Positions 16,806 to 34,072 of a stretch of 35,335 nucleotides of DNA are shown here, in pieces. Position numbers and translations under genes: made by a program. Numbering within the stretch: the first letter of the stretch is position 1; every line of letters begins with the position of its first letter. Source of the DNA: Planctomycetaceae bacterium (lineage in GTDB: Bacteria; Planctomycetota; Planctomycetia; Pirellulales; UBA1268); NCBI GenBank assembly GCA_947459185.1, contig CANHCU010000029.1:1-35335 (forward strand), written 5' to 3'. The notes under the pieces were generated by a model. The model had not been told where the DNA came from, did not search any database, and saw only the letters and a list, made by a program, of their open reading frames with translations.

Positions 16806-17582
16806 ATGGACGTCGTCATTCTCTGCGGTGGCCAGGGTGCGCGGATGCGCGAAGAGACGGAGTATCGTCCCAAGCCGATGGTCGAGGTTGGCGGCCGTCC
16901 GCTCCTCTGGCACATCATGCGGCTCTTTGGCCATTACGGTCTCAACCGGTTCGTGCTCTGCCTGGGCTACAAGGGGAGCATGATCAAGGACTACTTCCTC
17001 AACTACGAGGCGATGACCCAGGACTGTACCGTTGCCGTCGGGGGCCGCCGGCAGATCTGGTATCACGGCAATCAGGAGCCGTTTGATTTCGAGGTCACCC
17101 TCTCCGACACGGGCGTGGAGGCCAACACCGGCGGCCGCGTCAAACACGTCGAGCCCTACGTGAAAGGCGATACATTCATCGTTACCTACGGCGACGGCCT
17201 CGCCGACGTCGACATCGGCAAGCTCCTTGCCTTCCATAAGTCGCACGGCAAGCTAGCCACGGTGACGACCGTCCAGCCGGTGTCGCGGTTTGGCATCACG
17301 ATGCTCGACCAGCACTCCCGCGTGACAAGCTTCTCCGAGAAGCCGAAGGTGGAGGGCTGGGTGAGCGCGGGTTTTTTTGTCTTCGATCGCCGAATTTTTG
17401 ACTATCTCGATGGCGACGAGTCCCTCATCCTCGAGAAGGAGCCGCTGGAACGGCTAGCCGCCGAGGGCCAGTTGATGGCCTACCAGCACGACGGGTTTTT
17501 CTTCGCCGTCGACACATACCGCGACTACCTGCAGGTCAACGACCTCTGGCGTGACGGCCGGGCTCCGTGGAAGGTGTGGTGA
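16806..17582 (+). CDS. rfbF: Glucose-1-phosphate cytidylyltransferase
   Basis: Makes CDP-glucose from glucose-1-phosphate and CTP, the entry step to CDP-3,6-dideoxyhexoses. The 258-residue product opens with the nucleotide loop ILCGGQGARMRE followed by RPKPMVEVGG and LLWHIM, as in RfbF/DdhA. Other family segments are YGDGLADVDI with the metal-binding Asp and the C-terminal GFFFAVDTYRDY. AGGAA lies about 9 bases before the ATG at 16806. It is first in a coupled rfbF-rfbG-rfbH block; the next ATG overlaps its stop by 1 base (TGATG). Confidence 0.96.
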   Translation: MDVVILCGGQGARMREETEYRPKPMVEVGGRPLLWHIMRLFGHYGLNRFVLCLGYKGSMIKDYFLNYEAMTQDCTVAVGGRRQIWYHGNQEPFDFEVTLSDTGVEANTGGRVKHVEPYVKGDTFIVTYGDGLADVDIGKLLAFHKSHGKLATVTTVQPVSRFGITMLDQHSRVTSFSEKPKVEGWVSAGFFVFDRRIFDYLDGDESLILEKEPLERLAAEGQLMAYQHDGFFFAVDTYRDYLQVNDLWRDGRAPWKVW

Positions 17583-18709
17583 TGAGCGTTGCGGACGGCC
17601 TGAAGAGCCTGCGCGGCAAGCGGGTGTTTGTCACCGGTCACACGGGCTTCAAGGGCTCCTGGCTGCTCCTGCTACTCGACCGGCTGGGTTGCCGCGTGAC
17701 CGGCTATTCGCTCGCGGCCCCGACGACCCCCTCGCTCTTCGAGGCCGCACGACTAGTCGACCTGGTGGCAACCCACCATGAGGCCGACATCCGCGACACG
17801 GCCCGTCTGGCGTCCGCTGTCCGGCAGGCCGAGCCAGACGTGGTGCTGCACCTGGCCGCGCAGCCGCTGGTGCGGCTTTCGCACCGTGAGCCGCTCGAGA
17901 CGTTTTCGATCAATGTCGTCGGCACGGCGTCGCTGCTCGACGCGGTGCGCATGTCCGGTAAGCCCTGCGTGCTGATTGCCGTCACCAGCGACAAGTGCTA
18001 CGAGCCCCATGCTGACGGCCGGCCGCACGATGAGGCTGACCGGCTCGGCGGCCATGATCCCTATAGTGCAAGTAAGGGGGCGGCCGAACTCGTGGCCGCC
18101 GCCTACCGCCGGAGCTTCTTTTCGCCAAGCCGACTCGGCGAACATGGCGTCCAACTTGCGACCGTCCGCGCCGGCAACGTGATTGGCGGCGGCGACTGGG
18201 CGGCCGACCGGATCGTCACCGACATCGTGCGGCACCTCGCGGCCGGTGAGCCTGTGCCGGTGCGGAATCCTGCAGCCGTGCGGCCGTGGCAGCATGTGCT
18301 CGAGCCGCTCGCCGGTTATCTGTCGCTTGCCGCCGCGATGCTCGCCGAGCCGGCGGCAGCGTGGTGCACCGGCTGGAATTTTGGGCCGGCGGCTGAGGAT
18401 GACATCACGGTGCAGCAGCTCACCGAGATCTTCATCGACGCCTGGGGCGCCGGACGCTGGGAAGACATGCACGACCCGCGGGCCCCGATTGAAACGCACG
18501 TACTCCGGCTGGCCATCGATCAATCGCTGGCCGCACTGCCATGGCGGCCGCGGTTCTCCTCGAGGGAGGCGATTCAGCGGACGGCGGCGTGGTTTCGGGC
18601 GTTTGAAGCCGATTTCGCGGCCGCCCGATCACTCTGCCTTGCCGACATCGAAGCCTATGAACAGGCTGAGGGAACAAGCCGTATGGTCGGGTCGGGAGCG
18701 AACGCATGA
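17582..18709 (+). CDS. rfbG: CDP-glucose 4,6-dehydratase
   Basis: Extended short-chain dehydrogenase that converts CDP-glucose to CDP-4-keto-6-deoxyglucose. The Rossmann motif [11 protein letters not shown] is at residues 17-27. The catalytic TSDKCYE segment supplies the Thr/Asp pair and [12 protein letters not shown] the Tyr and Lys. [17 protein letters not shown] is characteristic of RfbG. 375 residues, normal length. I start at the ATG at 17582 (MSVADGLK), which overlaps the rfbF stop; GGAAGG lies just upstream. The stop overlaps the rfbH start by 4 bases. Confidence 0.95.
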
Positions 18710-20058
18710 ACGAGCGAGAGCAAAGCGAGGTGTGCGCGAGCCGCACGGCTGACACCGTCCGCGATGAGATCCGCGGCCTCGTGGAGGAATACTGCCGGCT
18801 CGCATTTCCCGACCGACCCTTCCAGCACGGGCAGGCGGTGCCGGTGGCGGGGCGGGTATTTGATGCCCGCGAGGTGGAGCATCTGGTCGACAGCTCGCTC
18901 GACTTCTGGCTCACGACGGGACGATTCGCCGAGGAGTTCGAAAAGCGGTTCGCGGCCCGCGTGGGCACGCGGTGTGCGAGCCTCGTAAACTCTGGCTCGA
19001 GCGCCAATCTCGTCGCGCTTACCGCGCTCACCTCCCACAAGCTGTTTGCCGAGCAACTCGTGCCGGGCGACGAGGTGATCACCGTCGCCGCCGGCTTTCC
19101 GACGACAGTCAACCCGATCCTGCAGAACAACCTCGTTCCGGTGTTCGTCGATGTGGAGCATCCCGAGAAGCGTGCCACCTACAACATCGACGTGAACAGG
19201 TTGGACGCGGCCCGCAGCGACAAGACGCGTGCGGTGATGCTCGCCCACACACTCGGCAATCCGTTCGACTGTGACGCGGTGGCCGACTTCTGCCGGCGGC
19301 ACGACCTCTGGCTCGTGGAGGACTGTTGCGATGCGCTGGGCGCCGAGTTCGCGGGGAAGCACGTGGGCCAGTTCGGCGATCTGGCGACCTGCAGCTTCTA
19401 TCCCGCCCATCACATGACGATGGGGGAGGGGGGTATCGTGTTCACCGATTCGCCGAAGCTCGAAAAGCTCGTGGAGAGCTTCCGCGACTGGGGCCGCGAC
19501 TGCTGGTGCGAGCCAGGCCACGACGACACCTGCGGCAAGCGGTTCGACTGGCAGTTGGGTGACCTTCCACATGGCTACGACCACAAATACATCTACTCCC
19601 ACATCGGCTACAACCTGAAGCTCACCGACATGCAGGCGGCAGTGGGCGTGGCGCAGCTCGACAAGCTCGACGGTTTCATTGCGGCCCGCCGGAAGAATTT
19701 CGCCCGGCTGCGTGCCGGCCTTGAGCCCTTGCAGGACGTCTTCGTGCTGCCCGAGCCCACGCCGGGCACGAACCCGAGCTGGTTTGGTTTCCCGCTCTCG
19801 GTTCGCCCCACGGCGACTTTCACGCGGCGCGACCTGGTCCGGCACCTCGATGAGCAGAAGATCGGCACGCGTCAGCTCTTTGGCGGCAATCTGCTGCGGC
19901 AGCCGGCCTACCATGACAGGCCACAACGCGTGGCGGGGGAGCTCCCCGGCGCCGATTACATCATGCGACACACGCTCTGGCTGGGTGTCTATCCGGGTCT
20001 GTCCGACGCCCATATCGATCATGTCGTCGACACAGTTTCAGCATTCGTGCGGCGCTAG
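18706..20058 (+). CDS. rfbH: CDP-4-dehydro-6-deoxyglucose 3-dehydrase (E1, PMP and 2Fe-2S enzyme)
   Basis: Removes the C3 hydroxyl of CDP-4-keto-6-deoxyglucose using pyridoxamine phosphate and a 2Fe-2S cluster. It belongs to the DegT/AHBA aminotransferase fold, but the Schiff-base Lys is replaced by His: H235 in [14 protein letters not shown], as known for E1. The E1 cluster pattern C-x57-C-x1-C-x7-C is exact here: C208, C266, C268, C276 ([11 protein letters not shown]). These two features separate it from sugar aminotransferases. It has 450 residues and is translationally coupled to rfbG (ATGA). The reductase partner (E3, RfbI/DdhD) is not in this window. Confidence 0.96.
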
Positions 20059-20059
20059 C

Positions 20060-21145
20060 ATGAGCACGATCATTGCTGCTGACATCGCGCGGTTGCTTGC
20101 TCGCACGCCGCTGCTCTGGGAGCCGCTCCGCGGCGCCAGCCTCTTCATCAGCGGCGGCACCGGATTTTTTGGCATCTGGCTCTTGGAAGCCATCCTGGCG
20201 GCCAACCGTGAGCGGTCGCTCGGCTGCCGGCTGATCGTGCTGTCGCGAGATCCGTCACGGTTTGCCGGCAAGGCCCCGCATCTCGCGGCCGACCCGGCAG
20301 TCTCCTTCATCGAGGGCGATGTTCGCAGCTTTCGCTTTCCCGACGGCCCCATCACGCATGTGATTCACGCGGCGACCGAGGCGAGCGCGTCGCTCAATGC
20401 TGATGACCCGCAGGCGATGTTTGACGTGTGTGTCGAGGGTACGCGGCGGATGCTCGCGCTCGCGCAGGAAAAACGAGCGTCTCGATTCCTGTTCACCAGT
20501 TCTGGCGCGGTCTATGGCCGGCAGCCGCCGGAGCTCGCGCACGTGCCGGAAGACTTTTGCGGCGGCCCCGATCCGCTCAATGTGGGCAGCGCCTATGCGG
20601 AGGGGAAACGGGCGGCTGAACTGCTCTGTGCGATCGCGGCACGGTCGTCGGCCGCTCGTGGAGACGGGCTGCATGTGTCGATCGCCCGCTGCTTCGCCTT
20701 CGTCGGTCCGCATCTGCCGCTCGACGTGCACTTCGCGATTGGCAACTTTATTCGGGATTGTGTGGCAGGCGGGCCGATCAGGATCGGGGGGGATGGCACT
20801 CCCTTCCGCAGCTATCTCTATGCGGCTGATCTGGCGGAGTGGCTCTTCACGATCCTGCTGTGCGGCGAGTCTGGCCGGGCCTACAACGTCGGCAGCGAGG
20901 AGGCGGTCTCGATCCGTCACGTGGCCGATCGGGTGGCGGATATCGCGTCAGCGGTCTGGCCCGACCGGGGCCGGCCGGAGATCGCGATGGCGAAGCAGCC
21001 AGCGCCAGGGGTGGTGGCTGAGCGATATGTGCCCAATTGCAGCCGGGCCCGCGAGGAACTTGGCCTCAAACCGGCGACCTCGCTCGACGAGGCAATCCGC
21101 CGTACGCTGATCTGGGCAGCCAGCGATATACTGGCGACATACTGA
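20060..21145 (+). CDS. NAD-dependent nucleotide-sugar epimerase/reductase
   Basis: Extended SDR of 361 residues. The nucleotide motif GGTGFFG is at 32-38, the catalytic Ser in FLFTSSGAVYG and the Tyr/Lys pair in SAYAEGKRAAELL. RSYLYAADLAEWLF and YNVGSEEAVSIRHVAD are typical of epimerase/dehydratase proteins in O-antigen clusters. It begins 1 base after the rfbH stop. By position it could act on the CDP-4-keto-3,6-dideoxyhexose made by RfbFGH, like abequose or paratose synthase, but the sequence does not fix the reaction. A dTDP- or UDP-sugar dehydratase is the alternative. Confidence 0.85.
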   Translation: MSTIIAADIARLLARTPLLWEPLRGASLFISGGTGFFGIWLLEAILAANRERSLGCRLIVLSRDPSRFAGKAPHLAADPAVSFIEGDVRSFRFPDGPITHVIHAATEASASLNADDPQAMFDVCVEGTRRMLALAQEKRASRFLFTSSGAVYGRQPPELAHVPEDFCGGPDPLNVGSAYAEGKRAAELLCAIAARSSAARGDGLHVSIARCFAFVGPHLPLDVHFAIGNFIRDCVAGGPIRIGGDGTPFRSYLYAADLAEWLFTILLCGESGRAYNVGSEEAVSIRHVADRVADIASAVWPDRGRPEIAMAKQPAPGVVAERYVPNCSRAREELGLKPATSLDEAIRRTLIWAASDILATY

Positions 21146-21383: not shown

Positions 21384-23510
21384 GTGGCGAAACGCAAACT
21401 GCCGGTGCTGAAGCCCGCGGAGGTCGTCGCGAGGCTCACGGCGCCGGCAATGCTCTGGTTTTGGGCCGGGCTGGCGTTCGTCGTGGCCGCGTTCGCCCTG
21501 CTCGAACTACTCGATCCGTATTTCTTCTGCCAGGACGACGCCCTTTCGCTCGAACTTCCCGTCGTGCTCATGACGTGCCGGGGCATCTGGCAGGGGCTCG
21601 TGCCTGAATACAACCCCTACATCTTTCTCGGCTCACCGACGCCCTCGATCAGCGGCACCTATCCGCCGATGTACCTCGCCTATGGAATCGCCCGTCACGT
21701 GCTGGGTGACGAGTATGCAACGTTCGACGTGTTCGCGGCGATCCACCTGCTGGCGGGCTATTGCCTCTCATTTCTCGTGGCCAGGCGGCTGGGCATCGGG
21801 CCGGTATTGGCGGCTCTTGCCAGCCTGACGTTCGTGCTCTCCGGCCCGGTGCTCGTGATGTCGCGATGCTGGCATTCGTTCAGCGTGCTGCCCGCAGCCA
21901 TTCCGCTCTTTGCCCTGCTGGTGGACCGGCTGCGGTCCGGCCCGGTGGACTGGCGGTGGCCGGTGGTAACGGGCGTCTCGCTCGGTCTCTTCTACCACTC
22001 AGGGTTTCCGCAGCTCTTCGTACTCGGCTGCGGCCTCATGCTCGTGCACGCAGCGGCGCTGGCGGCGGTGGGGCAGGTGCCCTGGCGGCGGCTCCGGTGG
22101 CTCGTTCCGGCGCTAGCCTTCGGTGCGGCCATCTCCATCCCCGTCTTCTATCAGCAGTGGCGGCTCTCGCGGGAAATGTCGTACATCGACCCCGGCGGTG
22201 GCACCGGCGTGGGAGGCAATCTCCTGTCGATGCTGCTGCCGTATCCGCTCGTACAAGGCACCTTGCCCAATGGCTGGGGCAGCCTGAATCTCGAGTGGAA
22301 CGGCCATTTTTATTATTTCGGCACCGTGCTGTTGATCGCATTCCTTGCGGCGGTCCCGTCGCTCGCGTGGCGGCGGATCGGGGGCCGCTCGCCCATGGCC
22401 ACCGCCGGGGATTCGTCGCGGCTGCAGTTGGCTCTGGTGATTCCGGCGGTCGTCGCCTTCTTACTGTCGCTGGGCCAAGCGGGTGGACTGTGGTGGCTGA
22501 TGGGTCTTCTGCCAGTTGGGCTTCGCAACAACCCGTTCCGGGCCGCGCCGTGGTTTGTGTTCTTCGCCTGCCTCATTGGCGCGAGATACCTCGAGGACTT
22601 TATCGCGTCGCGGCAAGCCCTGGCTGGCCAGACCGCAGCGAACCACCGGTCGCGGCTTCTTGTGGCCATCGCGGGCATCGGCGTCTTGCTGGTTGCCCTT
22701 CACCTCACCCGCGTCGGCATCGCGTTCTACACCTACGGTTTCCGGCCCTATCCGCAACTGCTGGAGGAACTGGCCAACGTGGTTGAGCCGGACGAGAGGG
22801 GCCAACAGCAGCGGATCATGTCGTTTGGAGCGTTGCGGTCGACCGATCCTTCGTATCCCCTCACGATGCCGCACAACCTGCCGTGCCAATACGAGGTGCC
22901 CGCGTTCTTCGGCTACGATCCGCTCGTGCAGCGATTCGGCCGTGTCATTGCCTGCATGGAGAGGCTTGTCGAGCGTCCGCAGGAGACGCTCGCGGCCTAC
23001 GGTGTGCGGTGGCTGCTCGTGCACCGGACGGCCTGGGGAGGCTGGGAGCCGCAGACACCGAATCGTTTCGAGCGCAAGTTTCCGTTCGTCCCACTGCTCG
23101 AAAAACTTGACAGCAACCCGCGGCGGAGGCTCGGGGAACTCGATGACTATGTGAGGGTGTTCGAGATCCCCGATGCGGCACCGCTGGCCTTCGATGCCGC
23201 GCTACGCACGGAGCCGCTCCCGTTGCAGATGAGCGTGGCGGGGCTTGGCATTGACCTGGAGCCGACGGCCGCCGCGCGGAACATCGTGGCGAATTTCCTC
23301 TGGTATCCCGACATCGTGGCGACGGCCGACGGCGCGCCGGTGGCGGTGACCGAAGACGAGTGGCAGCGGATCGTCGTGGCCGCGCCCGTCGGTGCCCGAA
23401 AGATCCGCATCCGCTATGCGCCGCCGCGTGCCACGGGCATCACGATCGCCCTGATCCTGTCGCTTGTGGGCGGCGTGGCGACGCTGGCCTGCCGCAGGGC
23501 TTCAGACTGA
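21384..23510 (+). CDS. Large polytopic membrane protein (GT-C/YfhO-like), N-terminus resembles HicA
   Basis: 708 residues with about a dozen hydrophobic helices (25 to about 450) and a soluble, probably extracytoplasmic C-terminal part, then a final helix near the end (ITIALILSLVGGVATLAC). An acidic pair in the first extracytoplasmic loop (FFCQDDALSL), plus PEYNPYIFLGSPTPSISGTY, fits the general plan of GT-C glycosyltransferases or YfhO-like proteins. The acceptor is unknown. The GTG start, 3 bases after hicB, yields MAKRKLPVLKPAEVVARL, which is how HicA toxins begin. The membrane protein may really start at the ATG at 21450 (MLWFWAGL), with the preceding bases a toxin remnant in frame. Confidence 0.75.
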   Translation: MAKRKLPVLKPAEVVARLTAPAMLWFWAGLAFVVAAFALLELLDPYFFCQDDALSLELPVVLMTCRGIWQGLVPEYNPYIFLGSPTPSISGTYPPMYLAYGIARHVLGDEYATFDVFAAIHLLAGYCLSFLVARRLGIGPVLAALASLTFVLSGPVLVMSRCWHSFSVLPAAIPLFALLVDRLRSGPVDWRWPVVTGVSLGLFYHSGFPQLFVLGCGLMLVHAAALAAVGQVPWRRLRWLVPALAFGAAISIPVFYQQWRLSREMSYIDPGGGTGVGGNLLSMLLPYPLVQGTLPNGWGSLNLEWNGHFYYFGTVLLIAFLAAVPSLAWRRIGGRSPMATAGDSSRLQLALVIPAVVAFLLSLGQAGGLWWLMGLLPVGLRNNPFRAAPWFVFFACLIGARYLEDFIASRQALAGQTAANHRSRLLVAIAGIGVLLVALHLTRVGIAFYTYGFRPYPQLLEELANVVEPDERGQQQRIMSFGALRSTDPSYPLTMPHNLPCQYEVPAFFGYDPLVQRFGRVIACMERLVERPQETLAAYGVRWLLVHRTAWGGWEPQTPNRFERKFPFVPLLEKLDSNPRRRLGELDDYVRVFEIPDAAPLAFDAALRTEPLPLQMSVAGLGIDLEPTAAARNIVANFLWYPDIVATADGAPVAVTEDEWQRIVVAAPVGARKIRIRYAPPRATGITIALILSLVGGVATLACRRASD

Positions 23511-23661
23511 GGCAGTCCGATCATCGCGGCCCGATCAAAACCATTCGGGCCGAGCGGCAGGGGGTCATTCGGCTGCCAAAATGGCTTTTCCCACGTGATT
23601 CGGTATTCTTTCGGAGGGTCGCCTTCGTTCGTTGGTCGGGCGATCCCGTTCTCTTTGTCGC
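23511..23661. other. Spacer before the GT2 gene
   Basis: 151 bases without a convincing gene. It contains TATTCT and GGAGGG sequences near 23604-23618 that might be promoter or ribosome-binding remnants, but their spacing to any good start codon is poor. The relevance is unclear. Confidence 0.3.
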
Positions 23662-24798
23662 ATGTCGTCATCCTCTCTCATGCCACAGGCTGCTCAGATG
23701 GAAGCACTTTCCAATCAGCCAAACACAGGCGCGGGGCATGCATCGCGTCCTGAACTGGCGACGTGGCACGGCGGCCGCCTGTGCCAGAGTGGCCAGGACG
23801 GGCGCCTCCGCCAGGGCGGGCACGTGGGCCTCGTGCTTCCCTGCTACAACGAGGAGGGGAATGTCGATGAGCTCTACGAGCGGCTCGTGACAGTGTTCGA
23901 GGGCCTGCCCGACTACACGTTCGAGATGCTCTTCATCGACAATGCGTCGACCGACGGCACGGCGGCGAAGATCAGGGCGATCGTCACCCGCGATCCGCGG
24001 GTGAAGCTGATCGTCAATGCGAGGAACTTCGGTCACATTCGCTCCCCCTTTCACGCGTTGATGGAATCGGCCGGCGACTGCGTGATCGCGATGTGCACCG
24101 ATCTGCAGGACCCGCCCGAATTGATCCCCCAGTTCATCGCGGCGTGGGAACAGGGTGCGAGCGTGGCGGTGGGGCAGAAGAAGACGAGCGCCGAGTCTGG
24201 TTTGTTCTGGCTGATCCGAAGCCTCTACTACCGCATCGCCAGGTCGATGGCCGAGGTACCGCTGCTCGAGCACGTGACGGGTTTCGGCCTCTACGATCGC
24301 CGCGTGGTGGAGATCATGCGGCGGTTTGAGGATCCCTACCCTTACGTGCGTGGCCTGATCTGCGAGATCGGCCTGCCGATCTCGGTGGTTCAATACGATC
24401 AGCCGTTGCGGAAGCGAGGTATCACGAAGAACAACTTCTTCACGCTCTTCGACATGGCAATGCTTGGGATCACGAGCCACTCGAAGGCGCCGCTGCGGTT
24501 CGCCACATTGTGCGGGTTTCTGTTGAGCGGCCTGTCGCTCGTCGTAGCGATCTTGTTTCTCGTCCTGAAACTGACGTTCTGGTATTCGCTGCCGGCGGGC
24601 TATGCCCCGGCCGTGATCAGCATTTTCTTCCTAGCGTCAGTGCAGATCTTCCTGATCGGGCTGGTGGGTGAATACGTGGGCGCCGTGCTCGCCCAGGTGC
24701 GGCACCGGCCGATGGTGGTGGAGGCGAGCAGGGGGCAAATGCCGACTGCGCCCGTTTCTGAAGCGAGCCCCGCAGGGGGGGCTCGTCATGGAAGCTAA
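23662..24798 (+). CDS. GT2-family glycosyltransferase (GtrB/ArnC/DPM-like)
   Basis: Inner-membrane enzyme predicted to transfer a sugar from a nucleotide donor to a polyprenyl phosphate. The GT-A domain shows LVLPCYNEEGNVDELY, DNASTDGT, and MCTDLQDPPELIPQF (the metal-binding DxxD region). VTGFGLYDRRVVEIMRRF and QPLRKRGITKNNFF mark the bactoprenol glucosyltransferase type. Two transmembrane helices follow (FATLCGFLLSGLSLVVAILF and a second ending LVGEYVGAVLAQ). The start is uncertain: ATGs at 23662, 23680 and 23698 are in frame, none with a clear ribosome binding site. A hydrophilic 50-residue N-terminal stretch precedes the domain. The lipid-linked sugar would suit the GT-C-like membrane proteins nearby. 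Confidence 0.88.
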   Translation: MSSSSLMPQAAQMEALSNQPNTGAGHASRPELATWHGGRLCQSGQDGRLRQGGHVGLVLPCYNEEGNVDELYERLVTVFEGLPDYTFEMLFIDNASTDGTAAKIRAIVTRDPRVKLIVNARNFGHIRSPFHALMESAGDCVIAMCTDLQDPPELIPQFIAAWEQGASVAVGQKKTSAESGLFWLIRSLYYRIARSMAEVPLLEHVTGFGLYDRRVVEIMRRFEDPYPYVRGLICEIGLPISVVQYDQPLRKRGITKNNFFTLFDMAMLGITSHSKAPLRFATLCGFLLSGLSLVVAILFLVLKLTFWYSLPAGYAPAVISIFFLASVQIFLIGLVGEYVGAVLAQVRHRPMVVEASRGQMPTAPVSEASPAGGARHGS

Positions 24799-25244: not shown

Positions 25245-25550
25245 ATGAGTGACACCCAACCCGAGCCCGCGACCTACGCCCATCGCTGCTGTCCAGCCTG
25301 TGGCAGTGATCGGCGTGATCAGCAGTCGGTGCACAGCGATCCGCCGGCCGAGCAGCTGCCGTTTAAGCGGGTGCTTGAGCAGTGGGAAACCCATGTTTTC
25401 AACGTCAAGACCTACTTCAGCTCCTTCCGCTGCGGTGAGTGCGGGCTGCTCTACTGCCCGTACTACCCGCCGCCTCTGGGGAACATTCCGGCCATCGTGC
25501 ACAAAAAGAACGGCCATCCACACTCGTCATCAACAAGGGATAGCGTATGA
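25245..25550 (+). pseudogene. Truncated zinc-ribbon methyltransferase N-terminus
   Basis: 101 codons. It has two cysteine pairs (CPACGS at 16-21 and CGECGLLYC at about 63-71) of the zinc-ribbon that begins many class I SAM-dependent methyltransferases of polysaccharide clusters. The sequence departs from that pattern after LLYCPYYPP and stops 30 residues later (KKNGHPHSSSTRDSV) with no methyltransferase domain. It could still be a small zinc-ribbon protein, but a deletion remnant is more likely. Its stop overlaps the next ATG by 4 bases. Confidence 0.55.
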
Positions 25551-26896
25551 CGGATCTCTTTGGAATGAGCGGCGACGAGCAACGTATGCGGTCGCGTGCT
25601 CAGGTCATCGCCATCGTGATCTCCGCGGGCTTCGTGGCGGCGGTGTATTTCCATTACTGGCTCGCCGCGTACGAAGGCTTGTCATATCCTCGGGCGACGT
25701 ATCTCTGCCGCACGGATGACAACATGCCACTTGCCACGATGCACGTGCCGTGGTCGGTCGTTTCCAGGCGTCATTGTTTTGGCGATTTGTATGCGCCCTA
25801 TCTGCAGACGCTTCGCCTCGCTCCATACGCTTCGGAAGGGATATTTCCAAGCAATTACTTGCCGTTTACCCACGCGCTGATGCTGCCGGCCACTTTTCTG
25901 CCGTACGATCTGCTTCTGCCGTCGTACCTAGCCTGCTTCGCCGCAGGCACGTTCGCGTTTTGTCTTTGGGGCGTCAGGGAACTGCCGTGGACAGATCGCC
26001 TCGTTTTCGCAGTGCCGATGGCGCTCATGTCGTATCCGCCGCAGTTCTTGATGGATCGTGGCAACCTCGAGGGGGTGGTGTTTGCATTTACCGCGCTCTT
26101 TTACATCTGCTATTCGCGGAGGAAAACCAATGCGGCGGCCTGCTTCTTGGCCGCGGCGATCGCGATGAAGGGCTACCCGGTGGCCTACTCGCTGCTTTTC
26201 GCTCTCAATGCGCAGTGGCGGCAGCTGTTTCTCTGCGCTGCGGTGTCGATCGCTTTGACGCTCGCCAGCGCTGCCATCTTCGAGGGGGGCGTGATCCATA
26301 ACATGATGGCGATTTCCGCGGGGGTCGAACACTATCTCTCCATCGTGCAGACTGACGAAGGTGTCAGGCATGCATGCAGCCTGTATGGTTTGCTGACGAT
26401 CCTTCACCGTAATCTGTTTGGCTTTTCCACCTTGATGACGACAGCATCTTTCTGTCTCGACAACTACAAGTGGATTCAGGCGATCCTTGGTCTCAGCCTC
26501 TTCGCAGCATGCGTAGTTCTGCCTCTCCGGCTGTGGGAAGTCCTTAGCCTTCTAACATTGTCTTTCCTTTTGCTGCCGCTGTCAGCGCATGAATATCGGC
26601 TGATTCATCTTTTCCTACCGATTATCGCATTCATTCGCTGCAAGAAGAGGGATTCTCACGTACTCCAGACCGCCACCGTTGCTGCATTGCTGCTCGTGCC
26701 AAAAGCTTTCATGTACGTTGAACGGGAAATAAGTATCGGTTGTGTCATCAATCCGGTTCTGATGATCATCGCGGCGATCTTCATTTGCCTGCGTGCGACC
26801 AGCCGACAGGACGAACAGCCTCCATTGATGGTTCACATGTGGAAGTGCGGTCTGGCGATAAAGCAACACCCCTTCTGTAAGTCGCGGTTGTCATAG
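25547..26896 (+). CDS. GT87-like membrane glycosyltransferase, paralogue A
   Basis: 449 residues with about ten hydrophobic helices, resembling the polyprenol-phosphate-mannose-dependent GT87/DUF2029 family. Recognisable blocks are GIFPSNYLPFTHALMLP, LMSYPPQFLMDRGNLEGVVF, AAAIAMKGYPVAYSLLF, SLYGLLTI, and HEYRLIHLFLPIIAF. These blocks recur in the same order in the convergent gene at 26989-28332, so the two are paralogues. Base composition is visibly less GC-rich than upstream genes, especially in the last 400 bases, which hints at separate ancestry. It probably adds a sugar to a growing glycan on the outer side of the inner membrane; donor and acceptor are unknown. Confidence 0.78.
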   Translation: MTDLFGMSGDEQRMRSRAQVIAIVISAGFVAAVYFHYWLAAYEGLSYPRATYLCRTDDNMPLATMHVPWSVVSRRHCFGDLYAPYLQTLRLAPYASEGIFPSNYLPFTHALMLPATFLPYDLLLPSYLACFAAGTFAFCLWGVRELPWTDRLVFAVPMALMSYPPQFLMDRGNLEGVVFAFTALFYICYSRRKTNAAACFLAAAIAMKGYPVAYSLLFALNAQWRQLFLCAAVSIALTLASAAIFEGGVIHNMMAISAGVEHYLSIVQTDEGVRHACSLYGLLTILHRNLFGFSTLMTTASFCLDNYKWIQAILGLSLFAACVVLPLRLWEVLSLLTLSFLLLPLSAHEYRLIHLFLPIIAFIRCKKRDSHVLQTATVAALLLVPKAFMYVEREISIGCVINPVLMIIAAIFICLRATSRQDEQPPLMVHMWKCGLAIKQHPFCKSRLS

Positions 26897-26988: not shown

Positions 26989-28332
26989 TTAGGGTTTCGC
27001 GCTCCAGCAGACCAGCCCTGTGCGGTCGCGGAGGCGTACTCGATTCGCCCGATGCAGTCCGTGGCGTTCGTAGGCGGCGAAAAGCGTGCGTGCAAGCAGA
27101 ATGAGCATGAGGAGCGGATTCAGCACGCTATTGAGCGACGTTTCGTGGGCAAGAATGATGAACGACTTGGGCACGAGCAGTAACGAAAACAGCACCGTAT
27201 TGAGTAGGCCGTTGGCACGATCCGTCTTTGAGTTCACGAACAACGCGAACGGGATCATAAGGTGGATAAGCCGGTAGTCGGGAGAGCCCTGTGGCAGCAG
27301 TACAAGGCACACTGTCGTGATGGTGGCCATTTCCCACAACTTCATGGGTAGCAGGATGCAGGCCGCTATGGAGCTTATAAGGATTGCACCGGCAATAAGG
27401 GAGTAAGAACTGAGCAGGGCGTTCCAAATGGGGGAAACGCTCGGGGAGAACTGCGACAACCACGCACCTATGGTGAAGAGTCCATACAGGCTTGACGAAT
27501 GGTTGGCCGACTCCAGCCCCGCAGTCACATTGCCGGAATAATTCAAAAGAACGGATATCAACCGCAACACGGAGATGTGTACCGGGCGAGTCATCAGCAG
27601 GAGGCTGACAATCGTAAGAACTGCCGCTGTTCCCACTGCGATGCCGACACCACGGCGTTTCGCAGCCCGGTAGAAGAGGGGGAGAAAGACGATGGGGACG
27701 GCCTTCATCGCGATCGCGGCACCTAGGAAGGTGGCCGAGGAAACGAACTGCCGGCGGACGAGGAGGACGATGAAGCCAGCCAGAAATGCGAATACGAAGG
27801 CCTCGATGTTGCCCCGGTCGACGACCACCTGGGCCGGGTAGTTCATCAGCGTCAGCGCAGCGATCGAAATGGCGTCCGTGTACGGATCGCCCGTGCGCAT
27901 GAAGTGCCAATTAAAGGCAAAGAGAATCGCGGCGAAACCAGTGATAAAGATGCCGACCGCCCATGGATAGGGCACGAGCGTGAGCGGATACGGCAACATG
28001 GCGCCGAAGGGAAAGTAGTTGCTCGGGAAACTTCGCGGGTCGCCAAAAGGCTGGGGGATCGATGCGAAGTAGGGATCGCGGTTTTCCGCGTGGATACAGA
28101 CCGCCAAGAGGTCTCCGAAGGAATGATTCTTGGTGACGATGTTGTCGATAAACATCGTGTCGCCTGGGCGGAGGAGATACGTCGAATACGGATACCGATA
28201 TCCGCAGTAGGCCCCGTACCAGTAATGCAGGAAGACCGATAGGGCGAAGCCCACCATCAAGATGAGAGTGGCAAGACGAAGTTTGTCGGCCTTGGAGAAA
28301 CTCCGGCCGGCTGCTGGGGTGGGGGCGGGCAT
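26989..28332 (-). CDS. GT87-like membrane glycosyltransferase, paralogue B
   Basis: 447 residues, about ten helices. It shares with the gene at 25547 the blocks HYWYGAYCGYRYPYSTYLL, RSFPSNYFPFGAMLP, LMNYPAQVVVDRGNIEAFVF, GAAIAMKAVPIVFLPLF, SSSLYGLFTI, PDYRLIHLMIPFALF and LLLVPKSFI. The ATG at 28332 has AGGAG about 9 bases upstream and lies 4 bases after the FGE-like gene's stop, so it is the last gene of the minus-strand operon. A polyprenol-linked sugar is the likely donor by family; the product is unknown. Confidence 0.78.
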   Translation of the reverse strand: MPAPTPAAGRSFSKADKLRLATLILMVGFALSVFLHYWYGAYCGYRYPYSTYLLRPGDTMFIDNIVTKNHSFGDLLAVCIHAENRDPYFASIPQPFGDPRSFPSNYFPFGAMLPYPLTLVPYPWAVGIFITGFAAILFAFNWHFMRTGDPYTDAISIAALTLMNYPAQVVVDRGNIEAFVFAFLAGFIVLLVRRQFVSSATFLGAAIAMKAVPIVFLPLFYRAAKRRGVGIAVGTAAVLTIVSLLLMTRPVHISVLRLISVLLNYSGNVTAGLESANHSSSLYGLFTIGAWLSQFSPSVSPIWNALLSSYSLIAGAILISSIAACILLPMKLWEMATITTVCLVLLPQGSPDYRLIHLMIPFALFVNSKTDRANGLLNTVLFSLLLVPKSFIILAHETSLNSVLNPLLMLILLARTLFAAYERHGLHRANRVRLRDRTGLVCWSAKP

Positions 28333-28336
28333 GAGA

Positions 28337-29239
28337 TCACTCCTCTACCGCGATGACTCGAAACCCCACCGTGTCCTCCACGGCGAATCGATTGGCATGA
28401 TCGCGGCGTGCCGAACGGCAATCAAGTGCCCGGGAGTCCCAACCGCCGCCGCGAAAACCGGCGTCATCATACAGGAGCAGGTAGGCGTCGAGTTGCCCTG
28501 CGATGCGATCGAGCAGATTCCCGGGGCTGTATTTATCGGCGCAGCATTCGGCGACATTGCCGTGCATGTCGTAAAGCCCCCAGGCATTCGGCGGATAACT
28601 GCCCACAGGCCGTGGACCGAGTTCGCTGCCCGAGGCCATTCGTTCGGTCACCGCAAACCTCGCCTGTGGATCCGCCAGTGATACACCCGTGTTGTAGGGA
28701 GTAAGCGTGCCTGCCCGGCATGCATACTCCCACTCCAATTCCGATGGGGTCATGTATGTTCGCCCATCGACCATGGTCAAACGGTTGCAGAAAACCCATG
28801 CATCAGACATTCGGACATTCTGTACCGGGAGCCGATCGCCGACGAACCGGCTCGGATTGAATTCCATGATCGCGTTCCACTCGGCCTGCGTGACCTCGGT
28901 CTGAGAGATATAAAACGGCCGACCAAGCCGTTGTGTCCGTTGCTCTTCGTCTTCGCCACGGCCCACTTCATCTGTTGGCGAGCCCATGCGGAGTTCTCCG
29001 ATCGGCACGCGGATCATCCGCATGCCGATGCTGTTTACAAATGACTCGACCCCCTCCGGCACCGGCAGGTCAGTCGGAGAGTTATTCACAGGGCGGTCAC
29101 CACGGCGGGGCAGGTCGGTACGAAAATAGCTCTCCGTTCGCCGGGGCAGGATGCAGCAGAACAGCAGCACCGCGCCGGCAATGCAGCCTAGGAGCCGGCT
29201 ATGACGTCGGGCATACGCCACGATTGTCTGGAGCGACAT
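28337..29239 (-). CDS. Membrane-anchored FGE-fold (sulfatase-modifying factor family) protein
   Basis: 300 residues from the ATG at 29239, beginning with a membrane segment (LLGCIAGAVLLFCCILP), so the domain is probably extracytoplasmic. An in-frame TTG at 29308 would add 23 residues. From about 70 the FGE-sulfatase domain is complete: FVNSIGMRMIRVPIGELRMG, ISQTEVTQAEWNAIM, PVQNVRMSDAWVFCNRL, TPSELEWEYACRAG, WGLYDMHGNVAECCAD, and RGGGWDSRALDCRSARRDH. True formylglycine enzymes use a pair of C-terminal cysteines; only one Cys is visible in the matching region here, and no sulfatase is nearby. A binding or other oxidative role in glycan export is therefore as likely. Planctomycetes have many such proteins. 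Confidence 0.82.
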   Translation of the reverse strand: MSLQTIVAYARRHSRLLGCIAGAVLLFCCILPRRTESYFRTDLPRRGDRPVNNSPTDLPVPEGVESFVNSIGMRMIRVPIGELRMGSPTDEVGRGEDEEQRTQRLGRPFYISQTEVTQAEWNAIMEFNPSRFVGDRLPVQNVRMSDAWVFCNRLTMVDGRTYMTPSELEWEYACRAGTLTPYNTGVSLADPQARFAVTERMASGSELGPRPVGSYPPNAWGLYDMHGNVAECCADKYSPGNLLDRIAGQLDAYLLLYDDAGFRGGGWDSRALDCRSARRDHANRFAVEDTVGFRVIAVEE

Positions 29240-29324
29240 CGTCGTTTCCGGAGTGGACAAGGTGCTGACTTTCTGGGCGGCAGGTGATTGTGGCGATGTC
29301 TCTGCCAACTGCCCGCGACGGTGG

Positions 29325-30413
29325 CTACAGTCCCCGCTCGTAGATCTTCGCCTTGAGCTGCTCGTCTTCCGCGTAGGGTGAATCGATCATATCGATCATC
29401 ACGGGGGCGTCCTTCGCACACGCCGCGGTCATCCGATGACCATATCGACCGAGCATCAGTTCCCGGCACGAGATCTGCCCCTTCTGAAGCGGGATCGCCA
29501 TGTAGATGTCGTCTTCCGTCAGCATCTGGCCCGGCTGCAGTTCGTGCTTCGCGTACACTCCGCGAATGTAGGAGTCGAGGTAGGCCGTCTCCTTCGCCAG
29601 CGGCAGTTTTCGGCCCGTTCTCGACGTGCCGCAAAACGTCACCGCCCGATGAAACGACTTGAACCAGGTGTCGATCTGCGAGGGCAGCGACGAATAGCTC
29701 GCGGGCTGGAAGCCGTCGGAGTTGATGTCGATGTGCCGCTCGAACGTGCGGACGCCCTTTCCGTAGGCGATCATCACGCTCGCCGCCCAGTCACCATGCT
29801 CGTGGCAGGAATAGCCGATCGTGTGGCCCGGATACCGTTCCCGCAGGAAGTCCACCTGCTCGAGTTCCGCCTCGCTGTCCTCGTGTGGATAGGCAGCCAC
29901 GCAATGATTGATCGCCAGCGGGATGTTGCGATTCTCGAAGAAGGTGACTACGTCATCCATGTCCTTGAGCGGGGTGCCGCCAAAGGAGACGATACAAGGC
30001 TTCCGTGTTTTCGCGATTCGCTCCAAGAGCAGCCAGTCGTTCGAGTCAGCGCTGGCGATCTTGATGATCGGCAGATCGAATTCCACGCACCAATCGACCG
30101 ACTTTTCGTCGAAGGGCGTGGCCATCGGGATGCAGCCGCTCTTGCGGATCGCGACCACCATCTCCTCGTAGTCGCTCTTGCGCAGCTTTGTATCGAGCAC
30201 GCGACGGATGTAGCGGATGTCCTCGCGGTCGCGAAAGTCCTTGTGAACGAAGCTGTCCACGTCGCGAAATTGCAGCTTGATCGCCGCCCGCACGTTGTTG
30301 AACCGGACGATCCGGCTGTGTTCCCGGATGATGGCCAACCCCCGCTCGAGGCTGCCTTGGTGGTTGTTCGTCATCTCGAGGACGAACAGGTTTTCAAAGA
30401 TGTCGCGGCTCAT
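29325..30413 (-). CDS. NeuB-like sugar-acid synthase (PEP condensation) with SAF domain
   Basis: Member of the N-acetylneuraminate synthase family, which condenses phosphoenolpyruvate with an aldose to give a 2-keto-3-deoxy sugar acid. TIM-barrel motifs in order: [66 protein letters not shown] and [10 protein letters not shown]-terminal SAF (antifreeze-like) domain includes [20 protein letters not shown]. The 362-residue length is normal. The start overlaps the stop of the cyclase gene (ATGA). No CMP-sugar synthetase or GlcNAc epimerase is in the window, so sialic acid is not implied. The substrate is unknown, and the coupled cyclase suggests the product is ring-closed. Confidence 0.88.
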
Positions 30414-31552
30414 GCGGTGGGTTTCCCAAGACCTGCGCTGGAATCCGTGCCCATTATGCCCCCGGAAAATCCGCTGTCGATGAGCCGGCGAATTGTCGGC
30501 CAAACGAGCCCAGCGACCTGCTCGGGAGTGAGCGACATCCGCTCCATCGCGCCATAGCCGCGGGTGAGAATGCATGTCAGGCCGGTCGCGGAGTTCTTCT
30601 TGTCCTTGGCCAAGGCCTGTAGCAGTTGCTCGCGGCCGACGCTCGCGAGCCTCTCTGCGTAGGGCTCGTGCCACGGCCGCAGGAGTGAGAAGAGCCGTTC
30701 GGCGTGGACGACGGGCACCATGCCCAACTCGGCGGACAGTGCCGTCGCCGTGAGCATTCCCAGGATGACGGCAATCCCATGAGGGATTCCGTAGTCGGAG
30801 ACCGATTCGTAGGCGTGCCCGAATGTGTGGCCGTAATTCAAGAGCAGCCGCTGACCACGGTCGAACTCGTCCGCCTCGATGACGGGCTGCTTGACGTCCA
30901 TCGACCGCCGCACCCAGCGAGCCAGGAACGACTCCCTACGATCGTCGGCGAAAGCTTCAAATCCAACCAGATCCCTCATCAACTCCTCAAACCCCGCCTC
31001 GCTCGACAACACCTGCAACTTGATCACCTCGCCGAGGCCGGACCGCAATTCGTCGTAGGGAAGCGTCCGCAACACATCCGGCACGAGCAAAACCCTGTGC
31101 GGCGGATAGAACGTGCCGAGTTGATTCTTGTAGGAACCGATGTTGATGGAGCTCTTGCTGCCGATGCAACTGTCGGCCTGCGCCAGGAGCGTCGTGGGAA
31201 TGAGGACCCAGCGAATCCCCCGCGACAGCACCGACGCAATGAAGCATCCTGCATCCTGAAGCACGCCGCCGCCGATGACGACGAGCGTGCCGCTACGTTT
31301 CAGATTGCGCTCCAACAAATCCAGAAACACCCGCTCGAGCGCCCCGTATGACTTGGCATGCTCGGAAGCCTCGAGGCTCACGATTCGGGATTCCGGCAGT
31401 CCCTGCCGGCGTGCTGCTCCGAGGCGGTCGAGGAGCACGCTGTCGACCAGAAAATGCATCTGATCGAGTCGCCCGAGCGACTCGATCGCCGCATCCAGGG
31501 TCAGGAATTCCTCGACCGTATAGGGGTGTGCCCGGCTCTGGATCGTGCGCAT
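30410..31552 (-). CDS. 3-dehydroquinate synthase family sugar-phosphate cyclase
   Basis: 380 residues from the ATG at 31552 (weak GAGAG upstream). NAD motif [12 protein letters not shown], then [21 protein letters not shown]. Active-site residues of fungal dehydroquinate synthase are all found with matching spacing: D127, K133, K142, N143, E175, K178, K221, R235, N239, H242, H246 and H258 ([14 protein letters not shown] and YGIPHG). The complete carboxylate-binding set speaks for a DAHP-like substrate and not for a cyclase of carboxylate-free sugars such as valiolone synthase. It could be the cell's only aroB. However, its place between an SDR and a NeuB-like gene, with overlap, suggests a dedicated polysaccharide or special-sugar role. 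Confidence 0.88.
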
Positions 31553-31583
31553 TGTGAAGTCTCTCTTGCGGGGTGGCCCTGCA

Positions 31584-32264
31584 CTACTGGCACGTGAATC
31601 CACCGTCCACGAGCACCGTCTGGCCGGTGAGATACGTGTTGCGGCCGGAGACAAGAAACGCCGCAACCTCCGCCAGTTCTGCCGCTTGAGCCATCCGTCG
31701 TAAAGGAATGGAGGCCTCGATGGCCCTGAGAGCCTCCGGTGGATTGTTCTTGCGGGTCAGTTCCGTGTCGACGTAACCGGGCGCCAGTGCATTCACGAGC
31801 ACACCGCTCGGTCCAAACTCGACCGCAGCCGTGCGGGTGAGCGAAGCCAACGCTGCTTTTGTCATCGAGTAGGCAGCGCGACGCTCCCGCGTGACCACCG
31901 CGAAGATGCTGGCCACGTTGAGGATTCGCCCCCAGCCGCGGGCGGCCATCTGCGGGGCGATTGCCTGCGTCAGGCGAAGCGCCGCCGTCAGGTTGACCTG
32001 CATCATTGCATGCCATGCCGAATCGTCGATCTCCTCGATCGATCGCAGGATGTTGATGCCGGCATTGTTGATGAGCACATCAACGGGTTCGTTGGCATGG
32101 CGACTGAGGTATGCATCAATCGATCCCGGTGCCGCCAGATCAAGCTCATTCCGCGACGGCGTGCGGACCTCATGCCCATCCTCCCGCAATCTGGCGGCGA
32201 TCGCCGCGCCGATGCCACGGGCTCCGCCAGTGACAAGAATCGTTCTCGCAACTTCCGTACTCAT
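31584..32264 (-). CDS. SDR-family oxidoreductase (FabG-like)
   Basis: Classical short-chain dehydrogenase, 226 residues. TGGARGIG cofactor motif near the N-terminus, LINNAGIN, catalytic Ser in ILNVASIFA, YSMTKAAL with the Tyr and Lys, and GYVDTELTRK. It reduces a ketone or oxidises an alcohol with NAD(P). The start at 32264 has GGGGAG just upstream and overlaps the stop of the ThDP-enzyme gene by 4 bases (ATGA). In this operon it probably acts on a sugar intermediate, as a reductase would after a ThDP-dependent ligation or a cyclisation. An acyl-carrier role is less likely without other lipid genes. Confidence 0.88.
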   Translation of the reverse strand: MSTEVARTILVTGGARGIGAAIAARLREDGHEVRTPSRNELDLAAPGSIDAYLSRHANEPVDVLINNAGINILRSIEEIDDSAWHAMMQVNLTAALRLTQAIAPQMAARGWGRILNVASIFAVVTRERRAAYSMTKAALASLTRTAAVEFGPSGVLVNALAPGYVDTELTRKNNPPEALRAIEASIPLRRMAQAAELAEVAAFLVSGRNTYLTGQTVLVDGGFTCQ

Positions 32265-34072
32265 GCTCTCCCCATTGAATCTGACGGCATGTTGCTCTGA
32301 AGTTCCTCCCGCGACAAAAACGGCGCCATGTCCTCCAGCGAAGACGTGACCATGCTGCCATCCTCGAGTTTCCGCGACGAGAGCTTGGGGGCGAACGGCT
32401 GCGCGAGATCCAGCACGACCTCGCACATGGCCGCCCCGGCGTGGGCCAACGTCCGTGCGATGGTTTCCTGGAGATCGGCATGCCGCGAGCATCTTTCGAA
32501 GGGCATGCCGAAGGCGGCCGCCAGCCGGCCAAAGTCGGGAAACGACAGCCCCGAGTCGGTGCCGCAGCCGACGATGCGGCCGGCGAAAAAGCTCGACTGG
32601 GTTTGTCGAATCGAGTGATACCCGGAGTTGTTGAGCACGAAGACCTTCACGGGGAGATTGTTCCCCACGATCGTCTGCAGCTCCTGCAGGTTCATCATGA
32701 TGCTGCCATCGCCGGCCAGGCATGTCACCCGGGTGAGTTCCGGCTTCGCGATAGCCACGCCGATCGCCGCCGGAAGGTCGTAGCCCATGGAAGCGCAGCC
32801 CGAGTTGTGAAAAAGCCGCTGCCCCTTTTTCACGATCGCAGCCTGAAATGCCGTCACGCAGGCCGTGCCGTCGCCGCAGGCGATCACGTCGTTGTCGGCG
32901 AGTTGCTCGAAAAGCCGCTGCATGAAGCAGTAGGGGTTTACCGGCTCTGGCTTGGACCAGTATTCCGGAAGCACGACCGGATAGCGTTTGACCCGCTCGC
33001 GGCACCATGCCAGCCAGTCGCCGTGCCGCGGCTTCCATGCGGCGGTAGCGGCGTCCAGCAGCGGCAGAAACTCAGCCAGATCGGCATGGATTTTCTGGTC
33101 GATCGAGAGCGTCGGCTTGTCGAGTTCCGCGGCGTCGACGTCGACCATGATCCGGTGGGCGTTTCTCGCAAAGCTTTTCCAGTTGTAGCTGACGAGGCGG
33201 ATGTTGAGCCGGCAGCCGAGTACGAGCACGAGGTCGGCGTTCTGCACGGCGAAATTGCCGGCGCGGTTGCCGAGCGAGCCCGGCCTGCCTGCATACGCCG
33301 GGTGATCGTCGGGCAGAAGATCGTTGGAGTTCCAGGCTGTGACCACTGGCACCCCCAAGCGATCTGCCAACGCGAGAAACCGGTCATACTGGCCGGAGAG
33401 ACGAATTCCGGTGCCCGCATAGATCACCGGCCGGGCGGCCCGGCCGAGTCTGGCGACAACGTCCTCAACCTGCACGGGCAGGTCGCTCGTGCGAAAGGGC
33501 GACAAGTCTTCCTGAGGATCGTATGGCTTGAGAGCGGCCGGATCGATCAGCGTTGCCTGCACGTCGACAGGCACATCGAGCCACACGGGCCCCGGCCGTC
33601 GAAACGTCGCCAGATGCAGCGCCCTTTCGAGGTGGTATCGAATACTGGCTGGATCGTCGATCAGTGCGCAATATTTCGTGACGCCGCGGACCATGCCAAT
33701 GACATCCGCTTCCTGATCACCCAGTTGCCGCAACGGCAGCCCCGTCGACTGCACCAACGTCTCGCGCTTGACCTGCCCGGAGATCACCACCATCGGCATC
33801 GAGTCAACGTAGGCGCCAAAGACGCCATTGATGGCGTTGATCGCCCCTGGGCCGGTGGTCACGTTCACGGCGGCCAACCGCCCCGCGACGCGATAGTAGG
33901 CCTCCGCGGCCATGGCGCAGGCCTGTTCGTTATGGCAGAAGACAGGCACAAGCCCCGGGCAGTTGCCCAAGGCGTCGTTGAGGTGCATCGCCCCGCCGCC
34001 CGTCACCATGAAGACATGGCGAATTCCGGTGGCCAGAAGGCGATCGGCGATGAAATCGGCTACTCGTTGCAT
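32261..34072 (-). CDS. ThDP-dependent acetolactate-synthase-like enzyme
   Basis: 603 residues with the three-domain plan of the acetolactate synthase/pyruvate decarboxylase family. The catalytic Glu is E49 in CHNEQACAMAAEAYY. A central dehydrogenase-like domain (about 190-340, VIYAGTGIRLSG) follows, and the C-terminal ThDP-binding motif runs from AGDGSIMMNLQE to FVLNNSGYHS. GDGTACVTAFQAA and the Gly-Ser-Met turn (CASMGYDLPAAIG) are typical. The start at 34072 (MQRVADFIAD) gives the normal N-terminus. It is not biosynthetic IlvB by context: no ilvN or ilvC is near. It resembles in kind YerE, which attaches a two-carbon unit from pyruvate to a CDP-keto-sugar, but benzoylformate- or sulfopyruvate-type roles are possible. 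First gene of the minus-strand operon. Confidence 0.85.
   Translation of the reverse strand: MQRVADFIADRLLATGIRHVFMVTGGGAMHLNDALGNCPGLVPVFCHNEQACAMAAEAYYRVAGRLAAVNVTTGPGAINAINGVFGAYVDSMPMVVISGQVKRETLVQSTGLPLRQLGDQEADVIGMVRGVTKYCALIDDPASIRYHLERALHLATFRRPGPVWLDVPVDVQATLIDPAALKPYDPQEDLSPFRTSDLPVQVEDVVARLGRAARPVIYAGTGIRLSGQYDRFLALADRLGVPVVTAWNSNDLLPDDHPAYAGRPGSLGNRAGNFAVQNADLVLVLGCRLNIRLVSYNWKSFARNAHRIMVDVDAAELDKPTLSIDQKIHADLAEFLPLLDAATAAWKPRHGDWLAWCRERVKRYPVVLPEYWSKPEPVNPYCFMQRLFEQLADNDVIACGDGTACVTAFQAAIVKKGQRLFHNSGCASMGYDLPAAIGVAIAKPELTRVTCLAGDGSIMMNLQELQTIVGNNLPVKVFVLNNSGYHSIRQTQSSFFAGRIVGCGTDSGLSFPDFGRLAAAFGMPFERCSRHADLQETIARTLAHAGAAMCEVVLDLAQPFAPKLSSRKLEDGSMVTSSLEDMAPFLSREELQSNMPSDSMGRA

Follow-up and report, generated by a model that had tools for sequence, protein, structure and literature searches.

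Gene content of the window

The stretch of DNA analysed here, hereafter the window, comprises 35,335 nucleotides from a Planctomycetaceae bacterium (GenBank assembly GCA_947459185.1, contig CANHCU010000029.1). Its minus strand carries, from position 34072 down to 29325, an operon of four genes for a thiamine diphosphate (ThDP)-dependent enzyme, a short-chain dehydrogenase/reductase (SDR), an AroB-like relative of dehydroquinate synthase (DHQS) and a NeuB-like synthase, predicted to depend on phosphoenolpyruvate (PEP):

32261..34072, minus strand: putative ThDP-dependent YerE/JanthE-like carboligase, 603 amino acids (aa); Pfam TPP_enzyme N/M/C; best structure match JanthE (8rph)
31584..32264, minus strand: SDR reductase, 226 aa; Pfam adh_short_C2
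30410..31552, minus strand: TIGR04425 AroB-related protein, 380 aa; Pfam DHQ_synthase and DHQS_C; TIGR04425 is the best model
29325..30413, minus strand: NeuB-like PEP-dependent synthase, 362 aa; PF03102 (NeuB), 118 bits; best solved structure 3g8r

Two of the junctions are ATGA overlaps and the third is a gap of 31 bases, just as an earlier reading made without database searches (the sequence-only reading) had described. That reading, which saw no shikimate, cytidine monophosphate (CMP)-sugar or branched-chain amino acid genes nearby, overlooked the cytidine diphosphate (CDP)-sugar genes rfbF, rfbG and rfbH at 16806-20058:

16806..17582, plus strand: rfbF, glucose-1-phosphate cytidylyltransferase; TIGR02623, 316 bits (cut-off 300.25)
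17567..18709, plus strand: rfbG, CDP-glucose 4,6-dehydratase; TIGR02622, 420.9 bits (cut-off 278.45)
18706..20058, plus strand: rfbH, CDP-4-keto-6-deoxyglucose 3-dehydrase; NF011936, 710 bits (cut-off 423); FYPAHH motif

The FYPAHH motif of RfbH has a His in place of the pyridoxal phosphate lysine. Together, RfbF, RfbG and RfbH make CDP-4-keto-3,6-dideoxyglucose, and a search of the organism's genome found RfbG and RfbH in this window and nowhere else. With the operon, these genes make up a complete gene set of the caryophyllose type (rfbFGH, a YerE-like ThDP enzyme, NeuB in place of an aldolase, an SDR and an AroB-like protein), and the case is strong that the window holds a pathway for a long-branched sugar of the caryophyllose kind, in a NeuB variant that would yield a 12-carbon surface sugar.

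The ThDP and NeuB-like enzymes

The ThDP enzyme, which carries the GDG...NN motif for its cofactor, has JanthE as its best match among solved structures (E 2.8e-128, 432 bits), the next being acetolactate synthases at about 229 bits. JanthE belongs to the YerE-like enzymes and joins 2-oxo acids to ketones, and the window protein is predicted to be a YerE-like carboligase with this ketone-accepting enzyme as its nearest characterised relative. Acetolactate synthesis for amino acids was considered and rejected, the protein scoring far under the acetolactate synthase cut-offs and lying nearest to JanthE. YerE, the enzyme of yersiniose synthesis, takes pyruvate as its donor, whereas the dedicated NeuB-like, AroB-like and SDR enzymes of the window would build a donor of seven carbons. 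The acceptor of both YerE and ErwE (erwiniose) is CDP-4-keto-3,6-dideoxyglucose, and 4-hydroxy-2-oxo acids are the favoured donors of ErwE and of MMAR_2332 from Mycobacterium marinum (PMC12247030). The window resembles the YerE, ErwE and JanthE systems in that a JanthE-related ThDP enzyme is found together with genes for a CDP-3,6-dideoxy-4-ketohexose (PMC12247030). This ketosugar is most likely the acceptor in the window as well, in which case the ulosonate would not itself be the sugar but would donate an acyl unit to it.

In an alignment, the NeuB-like protein retains the family positions KLQ, TPFD, Lys, His and Glu-x-His, in agreement with the intact PEP-condensation motifs of the sequence-only reading. 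While it shares its conserved metal and PEP positions with the PEP-condensing NeuB, PseI and LegI synthases, it reaches only about 100-108 bits where their equivalog cut-offs are at least 340 (PseI 108.1 against 340.25, NeuB 101.4 against 399.65), and its operon partners are not nonulosonate genes. Synthesis of the sialic acid type was rejected on the grounds of these low scores and of the lack of partner genes in the operon. Three proteins of the DAHP/Kdo8P-synthase family (3-deoxy-D-arabino-heptulosonate 7-phosphate and 3-deoxy-D-manno-octulosonate 8-phosphate, respectively) are encoded elsewhere in the organism's genome.

An AroB relative outside the AroB clade

By far the best model for the AroB-like protein is NCBIfam TIGR04425, a hypothetical family named "AroB-related putative sugar phosphate phospholyase", with a score of 383.5 bits that lies just below the cut-off of 400; within its clade, related proteins range from 306 to 434 bits. 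Against the aroB model TIGR01357 it reaches 257.6 bits, under the cut-off of 305. This latter score is what could be held in favour of a chance arrangement of the four genes around a housekeeping aroB, an outcome for which the sequence-only reading had left room. However, the second DHQS of the genome, on contig C92, is a canonical aroB (370 bits), a separate canonical aroB is also present in 16 of the 19 genomes checked, TIGR04425-type proteins and AroBs are split in the tree by a branch with a support of 100, and the gene order is kept across phyla. These findings rule out the chance arrangement, to which we assign a practically negligible probability.

Compared with AroB (3-dehydroquinate synthase), the window protein thus belongs to the same fold family, but it falls below the aroB cut-off, lies in a separate clade and has residues of its own round the active site; it is proposed to stop before ring closure. 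All 15 checked catalytic positions of DHQS are kept, including the carboxylate-binding Arg, the Asn and the second His to which the sequence-only reading had pointed. These positions are also conserved in 162 related proteins, apart from one Lys that is His in 56 of them and Arg in one. The carboxylate-binding Arg is present in 162 of 162 TIGR04425-type proteins, as would be expected if the substrate is a 2-ulosonate. Residues specific to the family (Q99, W115, the invariant C129, S135, P150, G174 and D231) cluster round the catalytic positions.

In the tree, the window protein nests within a Verrucomicrobiota clade (support 100), which suggests horizontal transfer of its gene; its sister is the protein of a myxobacterial locus, L045 (support 97). 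Within a sample of 392 Planctomycetota genomes, scores in the TIGR04425 range were obtained in only five, and in none of the other 11 genomes of the organism's order. The module therefore has a patchy distribution in the phylum.

Two types of loci

A profile made from an alignment of five AroB-like proteins was run on 84,980 genomes and on viral contigs, yielding at least 569 relatives in the former and 123 in the latter. Gene order was read around the best 80 bacterial matches, the best 80 viral matches and four planctomycete loci. This gave 161 loci with a usable AroB-like call, which were chosen as best matches and form no random sample. In 138 of the 161, the gene directly preceding that of the AroB-like protein encodes the SDR. 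The complete order ThDP-SDR-AroB-like-NeuB, whose conservation the sequence-only reading had proposed as a check, recurs exactly in the Verrucomicrobiota loci L042, L043 (Verrucomicrobia bacterium IMCC26134) and L046, and in a further one (L061) with small open reading frame (ORF) calls in between.

Type I loci, such as that of the window, combine the ThDP enzyme, SDR and AroB-like protein with either NeuB or a divergent aldolase of the HpcH/HpaI family. Among 60 loci with a ThDP enzyme, NeuB is found in 13, the HpaI-like aldolase in 42 and both in none; of the five with neither, three end at a contig edge, and in two the slot where such a gene would be expected is taken by an ORF call on the antisense strand. 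Where the ThDP enzyme is absent, NeuB or the aldolase occurs in only 6 of 101 loci, three of these six being on short contigs (the p-values for these co-occurrences take no account of relatedness among loci). In the sister locus L045 the order is ThDP-SDR-AroB-like-aldolase, and the aldolase stands where the window has NeuB. Because the two enzymes are never found together in ThDP loci, and because one occupies the slot of the other in L045, they look like replacements for one reaction, in which PEP or pyruvate would be turned into a 4-hydroxy-2-oxo (3-deoxy-2-ulosonic) acid. Both families indeed make 4-hydroxy-2-oxo acids, and the idea in the sequence-only reading that NeuB supplies a 3-deoxy-ulosonic acid to the AroB-like enzyme gains support.

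Type II loci carry the SDR and AroB-like genes without ThDP enzyme, NeuB or aldolase. A GmhA-like isomerase with a sugar isomerase (SIS) domain is present in 73 of 89 type II loci and in none of 58 type I loci, and RfbH in 7 of 89 as opposed to 33 of 58. In bacteria, most type II loci encode Gfo/Idh/MocA and D-2-hydroxyacid dehydrogenases, often together with a CMP-ulosonate-type cytidylyltransferase. As judged from this gene content, type II loci may encode an oxidative route to a heptulosonate, and its end product looks like an undescribed CMP-activated 7-deoxy-heptulosonate. Such a route would explain why the DHQS residues, including the carboxylate-binding Arg, are kept in all 162 proteins. 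The Lys that varies among these proteins (K178 in the window, K197 in Aspergillus nidulans) has been replaced by His in 56 of 99 type II proteins and is retained in nearly all those of type I; this exchange is a possible marker of a change in substrate.

Type II comprises loci L064-L120, from bacteria of many phyla, and many of the viral loci L122-L199; lactonase-like genes (6-phosphogluconolactonase, arylformamidase-like) are found in them as well. Throughout L121-L200, cassettes of the branched-sugar or heptulosonate kind lie on IMG/VR contigs, for example in the records of L129 (328 kb) and L135 (157 kb). A terminase is encoded on 5 of 21 IMG/VR contigs checked, so at least some of these are real phages; the contigs bearing NeuB gave no terminase match. 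A collection of isolate phages, when searched, gave only aroB-level matches to the AroB-like protein and one weak match to NeuB.

A mycobacterial counterpart probably linked to caryophyllose

The same HpaI-like aldolase was found in 10 of 396 genomes of Mycobacterium, the genus of locus L108, and in 6 of the 396 rfbG-rfbH lie divergent from rfbF-GT2-ThDP-aldolase-SDR-AroB-like, where GT2 is a family 2 glycosyltransferase. The operon neighbours in genome G647 are a 2123-aa polyketide synthase (PKS), an AMP-binding enzyme (FadD), MmpL and a condensation-domain protein (PapA); a second large frame of synthase size (PKS), split over two loci, adjoins the operon as well. These neighbours have the same gene order as MMAR_2340-2344 in the M. 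marinum lipooligosaccharide (LOS) locus (PMC4403928; PMC5706390). By gene content and gene counting, the mycobacterial operon appears to match this LOS locus: counting back from pks5, MMAR_2333, 2332, 2331, 2330 and 2329 fall on GT2, ThDP enzyme, aldolase, SDR and AroB-like protein, respectively. The counted positions agree with the published annotation of MMAR_2333 as a GT-A enzyme and with the description of MMAR_2332 as YerE-like (PMC12247030). Upon deletion of MMAR_2331, 2332 or 2333, LOS synthesis stops at a precursor without caryophyllose, which is 3,6-dideoxy-4-C-(D-altro-1,3,4,5-tetrahydroxyhexyl)-D-xylo-hexopyranose (PMC5706390).

With the caryophyllose part of that locus (MMAR_2329-2336 by gene counting) the window shares rfbF, rfbG, rfbH, GT2, the YerE-like ThDP enzyme, the SDR and the TIGR04425-type AroB relative. 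It differs in having a NeuB-like synthase where mycobacteria have the HpaI-like aldolase, in the distance of about 9 kb between rfb genes and ThDP operon, and in sequence, as its proteins are only 37-47% identical to those of the mycobacterial operon (37% for the ThDP enzyme, 47% for the SDR).

Three or four mycobacterial operons, among them those of L239, L242 and L243, have rfbH, ThDP enzyme and aldolase without the SDR/AroB-like pair. They fit branches that retain a terminal CH2OH, gastriose being an example. A haloacid dehalogenase (HAD) phosphatase takes the place of the pair in one of the three (L242, after the aldolase), which is a weak signal. With L239, L242 and L243, nature provides a control for what the pair does.

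That ThDP enzyme and aldolase are retained in such operons without SDR and AroB-like protein, together with the many loci in which SDR and AroB-like protein occur without ThDP enzyme, NeuB or HpaI-like aldolase, could also mean that the window does encode a branched-sugar pathway, but that the pair acts in another part of it, with a heptose phosphate or the not yet condensed tetrose as examples of a substrate, and that NeuB alone makes the donor of the ThDP enzyme. We regard this as unlikely, since a 2-ulosonate is the substrate suggested by the conservation of the carboxylate-binding Arg, and since an elimination followed by a reduction would give exactly the terminal CH3 and the 5'-OH of the caryophyllose branch.

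A proposed route and its alternatives

From gene content, gene order, conservation, family assignments and catalytic residues we infer a series of reactions, with their substrates, in which no ring would be closed. RfbF, RfbG and RfbH would provide the acceptor, CDP-4-keto-3,6-dideoxyglucose. From PEP and a tetrose 4-phosphate, probably that of erythrose, the NeuB-like enzyme would form a 3-deoxy-hept-2-ulosonate 7-phosphate by condensation. The AroB-like enzyme would then transiently oxidise C5, expel the phosphate from C7 and re-reduce C5. Its product would be an open 7-methyl-6-ketone and not a carbocycle: the C6-C7 enolate would be protonated rather than attack C2, which leaves a terminal CH3. 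Reduction of the 6-ketone by the SDR would give 3,7-dideoxy-hept-2-ulosonate. This 2-oxo acid would be decarboxylated by the ThDP enzyme, which would attach the remaining six carbons as an acyl unit at C4 of the CDP-ketosugar. Another reductase would complete the 1,3,4,5-tetrahydroxyhexyl branch, and a glycosyltransferase would transfer the sugar to a surface glycan. Candidates for both are encoded in the window:

20060..21145, plus strand: NAD-dependent epimerase/dehydratase-family protein, start codon not fixed; Pfam Epimerase
23632..24798, plus strand: GT2 glycosyltransferase; PF00535

The former, which is 52-55% identical to genes beside the ThDP operons of L045, L049, L050 and L051, is a candidate reductase or epimerase after the ThDP step. 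The latter is 56% identical to the GT2 of type I loci and 34% to that of the mycobacterial operon, and is a candidate for transfer of the branched sugar.

The atoms of caryophyllose can be accounted for along this route. Its branch, C1'(OH)-C2'H2-C3'(OH)-C4'(OH)-C5'(OH)-C6'H3, would correspond to C2-C7 of 3,7-dideoxy-hept-2-ulosonate, with C1 lost as CO2 and the new ketone reduced. The 2'-CH2 would be the methylene from the condensation of PEP or pyruvate, the D-erythro arrangement of C4' and C5' is that expected from erythrose 4-phosphate, and the terminal CH3 would sit where DHQS chemistry expels phosphate. The configuration at C3' would be opposite to that of DAHP (D-ribo, not D-arabino), and this would explain a dedicated synthase although the cell makes DAHP.

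The chemistry of DHQS normally ends in cyclisation. According to the sequence-only reading, the AroB-like enzyme closes the NeuB product into a quinate-like carbocycle, which SDR and ThDP enzyme then reduce and branch; the retention of all DHQS catalytic residues, and the pairing in one operon of an ulosonate-forming enzyme with a relative of an enzyme that cyclises, speak for this. We nevertheless consider such a route quite improbable. The SDR/AroB-like pair is part of the mycobacterial operon matching the locus of caryophyllose, a sugar without a carbocycle. Furthermore, a cyclised product has a tertiary alcohol and no 2-oxo acid, and could not be the donor that is decarboxylated; another ketone acceptor is provided by rfbFGH; and the CMP-ulosonate-type cytidylyltransferases frequent in TIGR04425 loci without ThDP enzyme require a free anomeric C2. 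The acyclic, CH3-ended chain of caryophyllose, to whose locus the operon with this pair appears to correspond, rather fits an elimination of phosphate without a retained ring. The unusual surface sugar of the sequence-only reading, carbon-branched by the ThDP enzyme, stands in outline, but it is probably not carbocyclic. A bicyclic product resembling bradyrhizose, a sugar whose genes are unknown, was also weighed, and nothing was found to link it to the window.

Several points have to be weighed against the open-chain route. None of the DHQS residues is missing from the AroB-like protein, whose sequence is thus compatible with ring closure. In the literature we found no mutant of MMAR_2329 or MMAR_2330, the link of AroB-like protein and SDR to caryophyllose being one of operon context. 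The rfb genes of the window lie about 9 kb from the ThDP operon and on the opposite strand. In the HpaI-like aldolase, moreover, Glu and Asp remain as metal ligands, whereas the pyruvate-binding Arg is replaced by Lys and the catalytic His of HpaI is lost, which makes the activity of this aldolase uncertain. Taking these into account, we consider the route in full, from a NeuB-made heptulosonate through a non-cyclising AroB-like phospholyase and SDR to attachment by the ThDP enzyme onto the CDP-ketosugar, the probable explanation, and chemistry without cyclisation by the AroB-like enzyme is itself favoured to about the same degree.

Implications and neighbouring genes

No substrate is known for JanthE, nor is a product for most of the 200-plus YerE-like enzymes (PMC12188165, PMC12247030). 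The operon family offers a complete, atom-by-atom route both for the making of long branches such as that of caryophyllose and for the natural donor acids of YerE-like ThDP enzymes. It also provides a proposed role for TIGR04425, a hypothetical family matched in more than 500 stretches of bacterial genomes, and points to the conversion of a shikimate enzyme from ring closure to deoxygenation. More tentatively, and as something close to an even call that we do not yet favour, TIGR04425 might constitute a new activity: DHQS relatives with a full active site and carboxylate pocket that release an open 7-deoxy-6-oxo-hept-2-ulosonate, followed by a dedicated SDR. The pair could then be a general device for 7-deoxygenation of heptulosonates, serving branched sugars made by ThDP ligases and, in those loci that lack a ThDP enzyme and outnumber the others, CMP-activated 7-deoxy-heptulosonates, in many phyla and in phages.

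An open-access literature search found no paper that names TIGR04425 or ties dehydroquinate synthase to such operons, and subscription papers or theses may propose it. A dissertation on longer-branched sugars that is cited in PMC12247030 may already propose parts of this route.

An open frame of 708 aa (21384-23510, plus strand), lying after the rfb genes and before the GT2 gene, gives no Pfam match. Two convergent genes for GT87 membrane glycosyltransferases (25547-26896, plus strand; 26989-28332, minus strand) lie in the interval that separates the rfb genes from the ThDP operon, and a protein with an FGE-sulfatase domain is encoded directly downstream of the NeuB-like gene (28337-29308, minus strand).

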